Positions 38,342 through 42,815 of a stretch of DNA of 64,000 nt are shown one piece after another (positions within the stretch are counted from its first letter, which is position 1; each line of letters begins with the position of its first letter). A model generated the notes under the pieces. The model made no database searches. It saw nothing but the letters and a program-made list of their open reading frames with translations, and was not told where the DNA came from. This DNA is from Mycobacteriales bacterium. GTDB lineage: Bacteria; Actinomycetota; Actinomycetes; Mycobacteriales; SCTD01. The translations under genes and the position numbers were made by a program. The stretch is taken from the NCBI GenBank assembly GCA_040902655.1, contig JBBDWV010000057.1, positions 438 to 64,437 on the forward strand. Reading direction: 5' to 3'.

Positions 38342-39249
38342 TAGAAGTAGCCCTCCTTCTTGCGGTCCTCCATGGCGGCCTCCGACGCGCGGTCGTCCGC
38401 CCGGGTGGCGCCGCGCTCGGTGAGCCGGGTGACGGCCACCTCCTCGACGACCTCCGCCGGCGTGCGGGCCGGGGAGGACACCGCACCGGTGCAGGAGGCG
38501 TCGCCCACGGTGCGGTAGCGCACCACCCGGGTGCTCACGGTCTCGCCCTCGCGCGGCAGCGAGTGCGGCGTGACGCCCAGCAGCATCCCGTCGCGCTCGA
38601 ACACCTCGCGCTCGTGCGCGAAGTAGATCGCCGGCACCTCGATGCCCTCGCGGGCGATGTAGCGCCAGACGTCGAGCTCGGTCCAGTTCGACAACGGGAA
38701 GACCCGGATGTGCTCCCCGCGCGCGTGCCGGCCGTTGTAGAGGTTCCACAGCTCGGGGCGCTGGTTCTTGGGGTCCCACTGGCCGAAGGCGTCGCGGAAG
38801 GAGAAGAAACGCTCCTTGGCCCGGGCCTTCTCCTCGTCGCGGCGCGCGCCCCCGAAGACGGCGTCGTACCGACCCTCCTCGATGGCGCGCAGCAGGGTCG
38901 TCGTCTGCAGCGGGTTGCGCAGCCCGCCCGGCACCTCGCGGACCCGGCCGGCGTCGATGTCGTCCTGCACCCGGGCGACGACCAGCCGGGCGCCGAGCTC
39001 GGCGACCCGCCGGTCGCGGAAGGCGAGCACCTCGTCGAAGTTGTGGCCGGTGTCCACGTGCACCAGCGGGAACGGGATGCGGGCCGGCCAGAACGCCTTG
39101 CTGGCCAGGTGCAGCATCACGATCGAGTCCTTGCCCCCACTGAACAGCAGCGCCGGCCGCTCGAACTCCGCCGCGACCTCGCGCATCACGTGGATGCTCT
39201 CCGCCTCGAGCAGGTCGAGCTGCGACAATCCGGTCGCCACCGTCGTCAT
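38341..39249 (-). CDS. cysD: Sulfate adenylyltransferase catalytic subunit
   Basis: A 302-aa PP-loop ATP pyrophosphatase-type subunit that makes adenosine 5'-phosphosulfate from ATP and sulfate. The PP-loop is LLFSGGKDSIVMLHLASKAF. VHVDTGHNFDEVLAFRD, FGGARRDEEKARAKERFFS and FPLSNWTELDVWRYI are characteristic. It overlaps cysC by ATGA and cysN by one base, so CysC, CysD and CysN are translated together. Confidence 0.97.
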   Translation of the reverse strand: MTTVATGLSQLDLLEAESIHVMREVAAEFERPALLFSGGKDSIVMLHLASKAFWPARIPFPLVHVDTGHNFDEVLAFRDRRVAELGARLVVARVQDDIDAGRVREVPGGLRNPLQTTTLLRAIEEGRYDAVFGGARRDEEKARAKERFFSFRDAFGQWDPKNQRPELWNLYNGRHARGEHIRVFPLSNWTELDVWRYIAREGIEVPAIYFAHEREVFERDGMLLGVTPHSLPREGETVSTRVVRYRTVGDASCTGAVSSPARTPAEVVEEVAVTRLTERGATRADDRASEAAMEDRKKEGYF

Positions 39250-39812
39250 GCCAACCCCTTCGCCTTCAACAGCGCCACGAGCTGGTCCACCGACTGCTCG
39301 AGCGTCTGCTCGTGCGTGGGGATGCGGGCAGCGGGTGCGGTCGGAACTTCGTACGGCGCGTCGACCCCGGTCAGGCCGGACAGCTCGCCCGCGCGCTGCC
39401 TGGCGTACAGGCCCTTGACGTCGCGTTCGCTGCAGACCTCGACGGGCGTGGCAACGTGCACCTCGAGGAAGCCCGCGCCCTTGCCGTCGTGCAGACCGCG
39501 GACGGCGTCCCGGGTCTGGGCGAACGGACTGATGACGCTGGCCAGCACCAGCACCCCGTGCTTGGCGAGCGTGGCGGCCACCCAGCCGATGCGCAGCACG
39601 TTGGTGTCGCGGTCCTCCCGGCTGAAACCCAGTCCCTTGGAGAGGAACTCGCGCACCTCGTCACCGTCGAGCAGCTCGACGCGGTCGACGCCGGCGTCCC
39701 GCAGCCGGGCAGCCAGTGCGCTGGCCAGCGTGGTCTTGCCGGCGCTCGGCAGGCCGGTCAACCACACGGTGGCGCCGGTCGCCGTACGGGCCCGCTCGTC
39801 GAGGGCGGTCAT
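39246..39812 (-). CDS. cysC: Adenylyl-sulfate kinase
   Basis: A 188-aa APS kinase that makes PAPS. P-loop WLTGLPSAGKTTLASALAAR, DGDEVREFLSKGLGFSREDR, ISPFAQTRDAVRGLHD and GLYARQRAGELSGLTGVDAP are the family blocks. ATG 39812 has AGGAGGAA eight nt upstream. It is the first gene of the minus-strand sulfur operon, 100 nt after a short leader reading frame and a strong hairpin. The cysH here looks like an APS reductase, so the PAPS may serve sulfotransferases. Confidence 0.95.
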   Translation of the reverse strand: MTALDERARTATGATVWLTGLPSAGKTTLASALAARLRDAGVDRVELLDGDEVREFLSKGLGFSREDRDTNVLRIGWVAATLAKHGVLVLASVISPFAQTRDAVRGLHDGKGAGFLEVHVATPVEVCSERDVKGLYARQRAGELSGLTGVDAPYEVPTAPAARIPTHEQTLEQSVDQLVALLKAKGLA

Positions 39813-39858
39813 CTGGCGGTTCCTCCTGGCAGGGACGGTGCACATCCGGACAGCAGGA

Positions 39859-39887
39859 CGCCCGACGCGGGACGTCCCGGTCGGGCG
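39859..39887 (-). other. attenuator-like hairpin before cysC
   Basis: Perfect 8-nt arms (CGCCCGAC and GTCGGGCG) enclose a second palindrome, CGGGACGTCCCG. The structure lies between the leader peptide stop (39913) and the cysC ribosome site, where a terminator or sequestering hairpin would work. Confidence 0.55.
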
Positions 39888-39912
39888 GAAGAGGCGCGCG
39901 GTGGCGCGGGGT

Positions 39913-40002
39913 CTACTCGCCCGAGTGGGGCGGGGAACACACCGCGCTCGAGACGCGCTGCAGATCGACATGCAGCCGCGCGACGAGGAACGAGCCGGTC
40001 AT
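39913..40002 (-). CDS. 29-aa leader peptide of the cysCDN operon
   Basis: The small frame encodes 29 residues with the core LVARLHVDLQRVSSAVCS, closely matching the leader on the opposite strand (LTSRLHVDLQRTSSAICS). Short actinobacterial peptides with this HVDL-R-SA-C pattern are annotated as putative leader peptides upstream of sulfur genes. ATG 40002 follows TGGAGCC. The cysC start is 100 nt downstream, after a hairpin. Ribosome behaviour at the Cys codon near the end is the likely sensor; this is inference. Confidence 0.75.
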   Translation of the reverse strand: MTGSFLVARLHVDLQRVSSAVCSPPHSGE

Positions 40003-40053
40003 GGCTCCAGGGTCGCACACGCCGCCGCGGGCGGCTGTGTCACCCTGGAAGAC
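40003..40053. promoter_or_regulatory. symmetrical divergent control region
   Basis: The 51 nt between the two leader starts form an imperfect palindrome: CCAGGGT-CG-CACA-C-GCCGCC mirrors CCAGGGT-GA-CACA-GCCGCC. Both Shine-Dalgarno sequences lie in the arms. Promoters for both operons must overlap here or extend into the opposite leader. A dimeric regulator could bind the symmetry centre. Confidence 0.55.
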
Positions 40054-40128
40054 ATGGGTGCCCTCCTGACGTCGCGGCTGCATGTGGATCTGCAGCGCAC
40101 CAGCAGCGCCATCTGTTCCCGGGCCTAG
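40054..40128 (+). CDS. 24-aa leader peptide of the sulfite reductase operon
   Basis: ATG 40054, preceded by GGAAGAC, opens a 24-codon frame ending SSAICSRA. The coding segment at 40075-40097 is a 22/23-nt inverted copy of 39956-39978 in the minus-strand leader. The stop lies 56 nt before the sulfite reductase start. Same family and probable attenuation role as the divergent leader. Confidence 0.75.
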   Translation: MGALLTSRLHVDLQRTSSAICSRA

Positions 40129-40184
40129 TCCCGCCTCCCCAGCGCGCCGGCGCATCCCCGTACGAAGACCCCCAGGAGTTCCTC

Positions 40185-41819
40185 ATGCCTGCCAAGCGCG
40201 GTCAGGGCCAGTGGGCGCTCGGCTACCGCGAGCCGCTCAACGCCAACGAGCAGTCCAAGAAGGACAGCAACCCGCTGACGGTCAAACAGCGGGTGCTGGA
40301 CAGCTACGCCAAGGGCGGTTTCGACTCGATCGACGGCGCCGACCTGCGCGGCCGGCTGCGCTGGTACGGCCTCTACACCCAGCGGGCCGACGGCATCCCG
40401 GGCGGCAAGACGGCCGTGCTGGAGCCGGAGGAGCTGGAGGCTCCCTTCTTCATGCTGCGGGTGCGCATCGACGGGGGGCAGCTCACCAGCGAGCAGCTGC
40501 GCGAGATCGGGCGGATCTCGACGGAGTACGGCCGGGACGTCGCCGACATCACCGACCGGCAGAACGTGCAGCTGCACTGGATCCGGATCGAGGACGTGCC
40601 GGTCATCTGGGAGCGCCTGGAGGCCGTCGGCCTCGGCACCACGGAGGCCTGCGGCGACACGCCCCGCGTCATCCTCGGCTGCCCGCTCGCGGGGGTGGCC
40701 GCCGACGAGGTGATCGATGCCAGCGGTGTGCTGCAGGCGGTCGCGGCGCGGTTCGTGGGCGATCCGGCGTTCAGCAACCTGCCGCGCAAGTTCAAGACCT
40801 CGATCAGCGGCTGCGCGACACACTGCACCAACCACGAGATCAACGACGTCGCCTTCGTCGGCGTGCAGCACCCCGAGCTCGGTCCCGGCTACGACCTGTG
40901 GGTCGGCGGCGGGCTGTCGACCAACCCCAAGCTCGGGCTCCGGTTGGGCACCTTCGTCGAGCCGGACCGGGTCGAGGAGGTGTGGGCCGGCGTCACCTCC
41001 GTCTTCCGCGACTACGGCTACCGCCGCTCGCGCATGCACGCCCGGCTGAAGTTCCTGATGGCCGACTGGGGTCCGGAGCGTTTCCGCGAGGTGCTGGAGA
41101 AGGAGTACCTGACCGCCCCCCTGCCGGACGGACCGGCGCCGGCCGCACCGCCCACCCCGGACCGCGACCACGTCGGGGTGCACGCGCAGACCAACGGGCT
41201 GCCCTACGTCGGGACCGTGCCGCGCGCGGGCCGCACCAGCGGTCTCCAGCTGCAGCGCGTCGCGGAGCTCGCCGAGCAGCACGGCGGCGCCCGGATCAGC
41301 ACCACCGCGCAGCAGGGGCTGGTCGTCCTCGACGTCCGCCCGGAGGCCGTCGAGACGCTGGTCGACGCGCTGGAGGCCGAGGACCTGCGGGTGCGCCCCT
41401 CCGTGTTCCGCCGCGGCACGATGGCCTGCACCGGCCTCGAGTTCTGCAAGCTGGCCATCGTCGAGACCAAGGTGCGGGCGGTCGACATCTACACCGAGCT
41501 GGAGCAGCGGCTGCCCGACTTCGACGAGCCGCTGACCATCAACGTCAACGGCTGCCCGAATTCCTGCGCGCGGTTCCAGACCGGCGACATCGGCCTGAAG
41601 GGCTCGATCGTCGACGGCGAGGAGGGCTTCCAGGTCCACCTCGGCGGGCGGCTCGGCGAGGACGCCGGCTTCGGCCGCAAGTCCCGCGGTCTCAAGGTCA
41701 CCGGTGACGGCGCGGTCGACTACGTCGAGCGACTGCTGCGCAGCTACCTCGACCACCGGCTCGACGGCGAGCGCTTCGCCACCTGGGCCCGCCGGGCCGA
41801 CGAGGCGCTGCTGAAATGA
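40185..41819 (+). CDS. sir: Ferredoxin-type sulfite/nitrite reductase
   Basis: A 544-aa siroheme and [4Fe-4S] reductase. The cluster/siroheme ligands are the pairs ACTGLEFCKLA (C-x5-C) and NVNGCPNSCARFQ (C-x3-C). Two ferredoxin-like half repeats are visible, the first with DITDRQNVQLHWIRIEDVP and TEACGDTPRVILGCPLAG. Reduction of sulfite to sulfide with ferredoxin is favoured over nitrite because of the sulfate-assimilation neighbours and its similarity to actinobacterial NirA/SirA. ATG 40185 has CCAGGAG upstream. Confidence 0.93.
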   Translation: MPAKRGQGQWALGYREPLNANEQSKKDSNPLTVKQRVLDSYAKGGFDSIDGADLRGRLRWYGLYTQRADGIPGGKTAVLEPEELEAPFFMLRVRIDGGQLTSEQLREIGRISTEYGRDVADITDRQNVQLHWIRIEDVPVIWERLEAVGLGTTEACGDTPRVILGCPLAGVAADEVIDASGVLQAVAARFVGDPAFSNLPRKFKTSISGCATHCTNHEINDVAFVGVQHPELGPGYDLWVGGGLSTNPKLGLRLGTFVEPDRVEEVWAGVTSVFRDYGYRRSRMHARLKFLMADWGPERFREVLEKEYLTAPLPDGPAPAAPPTPDRDHVGVHAQTNGLPYVGTVPRAGRTSGLQLQRVAELAEQHGGARISTTAQQGLVVLDVRPEAVETLVDALEAEDLRVRPSVFRRGTMACTGLEFCKLAIVETKVRAVDIYTELEQRLPDFDEPLTINVNGCPNSCARFQTGDIGLKGSIVDGEEGFQVHLGGRLGEDAGFGRKSRGLKVTGDGAVDYVERLLRSYLDHRLDGERFATWARRADEALLK

Positions 41820-42119: not shown

Positions 42120-42815
42120 TCAGACGTGCAGGCCGCACTCGGTCTTGGCGGTGCCGGCCCAGCGGCCGCTGCGGGGGTCCTCCCCCGGCGCGACGCGGCG
42201 GGTGCACGGCGCGCAGCCGATGGACGGGTAACCGTCGTAGGCAAGCGGGTTGACCAGCACGCCGTTGGCCTCGACGTAGGCGTCGACGTCAGCCTGCGTC
42301 CACGCCGCGATCGGGTTGACCTTCACCATCTCCCGTTTGGCGTCCCACTCGACCACGCCGATCTCGCGGCGGGTGGTGGCCTCGTCGCGGCGGACGCCGG
42401 AAGCCCAGGCGGTGTACGGCTCCAGGCCACGGGCCAGCGGCTCCACCTTGCGCAGCGCACAGCAGGCGTCGGGGTCGCGCTCGTACAGCTTGCTGCCGTG
42501 CTGCGCGTCCTGCTGCGCGACGCTCAGCAGCGGCAGGACGGTGCGGACGTTGACGTCGTAGACCTGCGCGACCGCGTCGCGGGTGCCGATCGTCTCGGCG
42601 AAGTGGTAGCCGGTGTCGAGGAAGAGCACGTCGACGCCGGAGGCCACCGACGAGGCCAGGTGCGCGAGCAGCCCGTCGCCCATGGAGGAGGCGATGACGA
42701 AGCGGTCACCGAAGGTGTCGACGGCCCAGCGGAGGACCTCCTGCGCGGGCGCCCCCTCGAGGTCACGGCCCGCCTGCTCGGCAACCGACTGCAGCTCCAC
42801 GACAACATTGTCCAC
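42120..42815 (-). CDS. cysH: Adenylyl-sulfate (APS) reductase, CysH
   Basis: A 231-aa thiol-dependent reductase giving sulfite and AMP. It has the four iron-sulfur cysteines of APS-type enzymes (DACCALRKVEPL and SIGCAPCTRRV) and the catalytic C-terminus KTECGLHV. LDTGYHFAETIGTRDAV is the substrate loop. The iron-sulfur motif indicates APS rather than PAPS as substrate. No Shine-Dalgarno precedes either GTG 42815 or GTG 42800; the former matches relatives' N-termini, and GACAAT six nt before the latter could mark a leaderless start. Confidence 0.92.
   Translation of the reverse strand: MDNVVVELQSVAEQAGRDLEGAPAQEVLRWAVDTFGDRFVIASSMGDGLLAHLASSVASGVDVLFLDTGYHFAETIGTRDAVAQVYDVNVRTVLPLLSVAQQDAQHGSKLYERDPDACCALRKVEPLARGLEPYTAWASGVRRDEATTRREIGVVEWDAKREMVKVNPIAAWTQADVDAYVEANGVLVNPLAYDGYPSIGCAPCTRRVAPGEDPRSGRWAGTAKTECGLHV

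Follow-up and report, generated by a model that had tools for sequence, protein, structure and literature searches.

Leader peptide genes of the sulfate assimilation locus

Two tiny back-to-back genes in a sulfate assimilation locus most likely act as cysteine sensors. The locus lies in the window (the whole 64,000-nucleotide stretch of DNA that was analysed), where sir on the plus strand diverges from cysC-cysD-cysN on the minus strand (from 39812), with both leader genes in between. Each operon probably opens with its own cysteine-sensing leader of the NF042934/Ms4527A type, whose mRNA would be leaderless and whose translation would pause at a UGU codon, raising the expression of the genes downstream. 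The new, unexpected part of the finding is a codon rule, namely that nearly every member of this family relies on UGU as the codon of its conserved cysteine (C12), in genomes where this codon is otherwise rare. The following features were distinguished:

39246-39812, minus strand: cysC (APS kinase), followed by cysD and cysN; name assigned by sequence motifs and gene order rather than by a family search
39813-39912, minus strand: untranslated stretch from the leader to cysC, with a 12-bp hairpin (not conserved) and a Shine-Dalgarno (SD) sequence
39913-40002, minus strand: cysC-side leader frame, MTGSFLVARLHVDLQRVSSAVCSPPHSGE followed by a stop; NF042934, 38.4 bits; orthologs precede CysC
39937-39939, minus strand: TGT, invariant cysteine codon C12 of the minus-strand leader
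40009-40019, minus strand: extended -10 promoter TGTGCGACCCT, perfect motif, 6 nt before the leader ATG; predicted leaderless start
40036-40046, plus strand: extended -10 promoter TGTGTCACCCT, perfect motif, 7 nt before the leader ATG; predicted leaderless start
40054-40128, plus strand: sir-side leader frame, MGALLTSRLHVDLQRTSSAICSRA followed by a stop; NF042934, 38.7 bits; kept upstream of Sir in most relatives
40114-40116, plus strand: TGT, invariant cysteine codon C12 of the plus-strand leader
40129-40184, plus strand: C-rich untranslated stretch from the leader to sir, containing the SD sequence AGGAG and no terminator
40185-41819, plus strand: sir, ferredoxin-type sulfite/nitrite reductase (Pfam NIR_SIR and NIR_SIR_ferr)

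A cysH-like gene (231 aa from its VDNVVV start) is also located on the minus strand of the window, ending at 42120; it is convergent to sir and is not preceded by an NF042934-type leader.

Family assignment and related systems

Both frames match the NCBIfam profile NF042934 ("putative leader peptide") above its curated cut-off of 27 bits (E 5e-10 for the plus-strand and 6e-10 for the minus-strand leader), and they are the only members above this cut-off in their own genome. The claim of the preliminary description that both sulfur operons begin with a tiny frame of one family is thereby borne out, as is the distance of 51 nt between the two start codons. Its further proposal, that the leaders are translated, one per sulfur operon, and probably sense cysteine or Cys-tRNA, gains support from the family membership. 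Each leader contains one cysteine and no run of Cys codons, and each stands directly upstream of sulfur/cysteine genes, sir beginning 56 nt and cysC 100 nt downstream. The scores against NF042936 (Ms4527A), 14.1 bits for the plus-strand and 28.3 bits for the minus-strand leader, are below the cut-off of 45 bits for that profile, and an Rfam search gave no credible match.

Judged by these profile matches, the window leaders are members of a peptide family already known in actinobacteria. They share the register and the position before sulfur genes with the NF042934 cis_reg_atten leaders, from which no sequence-level difference was found, and the tight divergent pair is an arrangement rather than a new family. 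The H-[VI]-D-[LFY]-x-R...C12 register recurs in the Ms4527A-type leaders (L193-L198), which lie upstream of Sir and carry UGU at C12 in 6/6 cases; this ties the window leaders to an experimentally studied kind, and by this resemblance the window leaders are homologous to the Ms4527A-type leaders preceding sulfite reductase in mycobacteria. In 2020, Canestrari reportedly described cysteine-responsive attenuation by leaderless polycysteine short ORFs in mycobacteria. The Ms4527A-type/mycobacterial polycysteine leaders have 3-4 Cys codons, compared with one in each window leader. That mycobacterial cysteine leader ORFs are leaderless is stated in the title of the Canestrari 2020 paper, as cited in PMC9094748 and PMC13236596. 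Terminator-free cys leader peptides were predicted by Seliverstov et al. (2005; PMC1262725), who suggested a role of Rho; there too, small frames placed before cys operons carry Cys codons close to their stop and lack a terminator, but they contain runs of Cys codons and come from Mycobacterium, Propionibacterium and Bifidobacterium.

Promoters

In a set of 80 leaders thinned to <85% identity, the extended -10 motif TGTGNNANNNT was perfect in 55, compared with 0.5% of shuffled controls. The distance from the end of the motif to the first in-frame start codon is nearly constant: 6 nt in 38 leaders, 7 nt in 16 and 8 nt in one. Since the motif ends this close to the start codon, a leaderless mRNA is predicted, and both leader mRNAs of the window are probably of this type. 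The DNA between the two leaders had been described as palindromic; the palindrome is present, but it consists of two divergent extended -10 promoters placed back to back, and a separate function for it is not supported.

Coding character and the UGU rule

The family shares a 12-residue register, H-V/I-D-L-x-R-x-x-S-A-x-C, in which positions 5, 7, 8 and 11 vary freely, while variation at core codons 1, 3, 4, 6 and 10 is almost purely synonymous. The pN/pS ratio of the 12-codon core is 0.41 in frame, versus 1.2 and 1.6 in the two shifted frames. The conservation of H, V/I, D, L, R and C partly reflects selection by the search expression, since H/R, V/I, D/E, an L-like residue, R and C were demanded in the motif searches; the contrast between UGU and UGC is unaffected by it.

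All 80 leaders of the first set have UGU at C12, as do 115/117 leaders of a larger set, from which three loci retrieved by a UGC pattern were excluded. Other Cys codons within the same leaders comprise 12 UGU and 32 UGC (Fisher p 2e-21 versus C12; p-values for this rule ignore relatedness, and the rule is kept across many families), and in the sir genes of 79 related loci UGC accounts for 96% (35 UGU, 763 UGC). Codon use in the leaders is generally looser than in sir genes (CAT 26% and GAT 31%, versus about 4%), yet this falls far short of the 98% observed at C12. When a degenerate pattern was applied across the class, the version ending in TGT matched 109/247 genomes and that ending in TGC matched 3. 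The exceptions to UGU at C12 are L160-L162, L214, L216 and L217; those with UGC in L214, L216, L217 and L160 are concentrated in one family (f13) of the order. At Ser9 an AGY codon was found in 68/72 leaders of the first set, with AGY making up about one third of the Ser codons in sir genes; this preference is weaker than the UGU rule and absent from some other lineages. No mention of the UGU rule was found in the literature searched, which did not include the main experimental paper (Canestrari 2020).

Proposed mechanism of cysteine sensing

According to the proposed mechanism, the two back-to-back extended -10 promoters would initiate transcription at, or within 1-2 nt of, the leader start codons, and ribosomes would load on the 5' AUG of the resulting leaderless mRNAs. 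Having synthesized H-V-D-L-x-R-x-x-S-A-x, the ribosome would reach the single UGU codon. If charged tRNA-Cys were scarce, it would pause at this codon, with a few codons of the leader left to translate and the conserved peptide in the exit tunnel, and expression of the downstream operon would increase; with ample cysteine it would finish the leader and depart, and downstream expression would decrease. The output step might be termination by Rho within the C-rich stretch or, alternatively, a change in the accessibility of the ribosome-binding site. The leaderless start, the sensing of Cys-tRNA and the pausing at UGU are proposed by analogy with published mycobacterial homologs.

In bacteria, UGU and UGC are expected to be read by the same tRNA-Cys(GCA), and a single tRNA-Cys is assumed for the genome of the window. 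Selection for UGU would therefore not be explained by isoacceptor charging and would point to codon-anticodon kinetics combined with the peptide. It is quite possible, although we propose it tentatively, that the family is a single-codon cysteine sensor, in which one wobble-decoded UGU and a conserved nascent peptide that prolongs the pause replace a run of regulatory codons. How cysteine can be sensed by a leader that has just one Cys codon is a question to which the strictness of UGU in high-GC genomes offers a testable clue. The attenuation model of PMC1183508 counts against the mechanism proposed above, as with one Cys codon pure tRNA-charging attenuation should be less sensitive than with several.

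A different explanation of the same codon, which we consider unlikely, is that a nascent-chain arrest peptide senses a sulfur metabolite directly, in the manner of TnaC and tryptophan, with UGU acting via the peptide and not via the charging of tRNA-Cys. The fixed 12-residue register with its free positions and the single Cys of most leaders would fit such a peptide, and the stretch that follows the leader, rich in C and lacking conserved structure, might be suitable for a Rho-dependent system; however, a pure peptide sensor leaves the avoidance of the synonymous UGC unexplained, and the extra Cys codons of the mycobacterial homologs are what codon reading predicts.

Distribution of the leaders and recurrence of the divergent pair

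The leader is present in 112/121 genomes of the same order (44/48 genera), and the nearest named relatives of the locus belong to uncultured "Frankiales bacterium" genomes. When 13 sir loci missed by the first search expression were re-inspected, 9 of them contained HIDLALVSSAxC with UGU behind the same promoter motif. Elsewhere, genes downstream of the family leaders encode Sir, CysC, CysD, CysH, CbiX, cysteine dioxygenase, SAM synthetase, a Cys/Met PLP enzyme and TauE.

The preliminary description had suggested looking for paired leaders in other genomes, and such pairs were found. Orthologous divergent pairs, counted as adjacent leader matches, occur in 9/24 genomes of the same family (G000, G005, G007, G014, G015, G017, G019, G020 and G023), and further ones, mostly with looser spacing, in other lineages (L054, L065, L066, L067, L106, L139 and L204). 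In other genomes of the family the leaders are on different contigs, and where the sir and cysC operons are apart, each retains its own leader. A locus of another family (L148; G185:C172:14727-14898) has sir and cysH leaders that diverge from start codons separated by 25 nt; there, one palindromic 13-mer (AGTGTGGCACACT) appears to be the extended -10 in both directions. A class-wide pattern for tight pairs matched 19 genomes, among which leaders on both sides were recognized by reading only in G000 and G185. The partner gene varies between cysC, cysH and cbiX, so a pair apparently forms wherever two sulfur operons, each with its own leader, come to lie divergently next to each other.

We read the pair as two separate members of the cysteine regulon and not as a balancing device. 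Both leaders would answer the same signal independently, so that both operons rise and fall together, and the pair extends the known cysteine regulon to a sulfate assimilation locus with a leader on both arms. The earlier idea of a duplicated device that balances APS synthesis and sulfite reduction is not supported, given the non-adjacent leaders of relatives at separate loci and the 23-nt identity across ten tight pairs, whose mean is 19.5/23 within the same genome and 18.6/23 between genomes. As leaders of the same genome are barely more alike than those of different genomes, neither recent duplication nor ongoing gene conversion is indicated; the excess of 0.9 of 23 nt (permutation p 0.02, from 10 partly related pairs) is too small to claim gene conversion between paired leaders.

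It is improbable, more so than the arrest peptide, that overlapping divergent promoters compete for RNA polymerase and, together with the leaders as one coupled device, determine the proportion between APS synthesis and sulfite reduction. In tight pairs of the same family the -10 boxes are 14-41 bp apart, well within one polymerase footprint, and in E. coli a bidirectional promoter that is strongly activated in one direction can thereby be repressed in the other (PMC12825309). Such promoters likewise fire divergently from symmetric DNA, but here, except in L148, there are two separate -10 elements. The start-to-start spacing of the pairs, from 25 to 213 nt, is not conserved, several relatives have their leaders at separate loci, and both leaders should react alike to the same signal, all of which argue against such a coupled device.

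The inverted repeat of 23 nt between 39956-39978 and 40075-40097 is present as previously described, with 22/23 identity, but its status as a special element is not supported, as it follows from the shared peptide. When independent encodings of RLHVDLQR were simulated, at least 22/23 was reached in 10% of cases with leader codon use and in 18% with gene codon use; a repeat of this quality is thus roughly the chance expectation for two copies of the peptide, and it was rejected as a functional element.

Regulatory output behind the leaders

C12 is usually placed 1-4 codons upstream of the leader stop. A classical transcription attenuator has an intrinsic terminator and antiterminator behind the leader, whereas the window leaders lack a U-tract terminator; no intrinsic terminator was found behind the family leaders, T-runs occurring in 2/112 stretches. 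The strong hairpin noted earlier between the minus-strand leader and cysC has a real 12-bp stem (UTR z = -2.6), but is not conserved among cysC arms, and no conserved structure was detected behind the leaders (mean UTR z -0.35 for 16 cysC stretches and -0.07 for 71 sir stretches). Release of the SD sequence upon stalling of a ribosome at the Cys codon was unchanged in the sir arm (0.30 to 0.32) and weak in the cysC arm (0.19 to 0.28). Across the stretches, neither a conserved RNA structure nor a consistent SD switch was found. In 54/56 sir arms and 16/17 cysC arms the stretch had a higher C-skew than the gene, a weak pointer to Rho, as the gene was the sole reference.

A reading in which translation is irrelevant and the frames are conserved at the DNA or RNA level, as promoter, operator or structure, is highly improbable: the invariance of UGU12 and the AGY preference at Ser9 do indicate some nucleotide-level constraint, but the coding substitution pattern occurs in this frame only, the nucleotides adjoining UGU12 are less conserved and no conserved structure was found.

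Leaders were also observed before varied, mostly sulfur-related genes in L009, L029, L065, L163, L181, L183, L184, L208 and L217, which include genes for an NMT1-like binding protein, an FMN reductase, a luciferase-like monooxygenase and an amino-acid binding protein. In L162, L174, L173 and L186 they precede genes that, by sequence reading, encode probable regulators of the winged-helix OmpR and ROK types, and the leader family may also control transcription factors.
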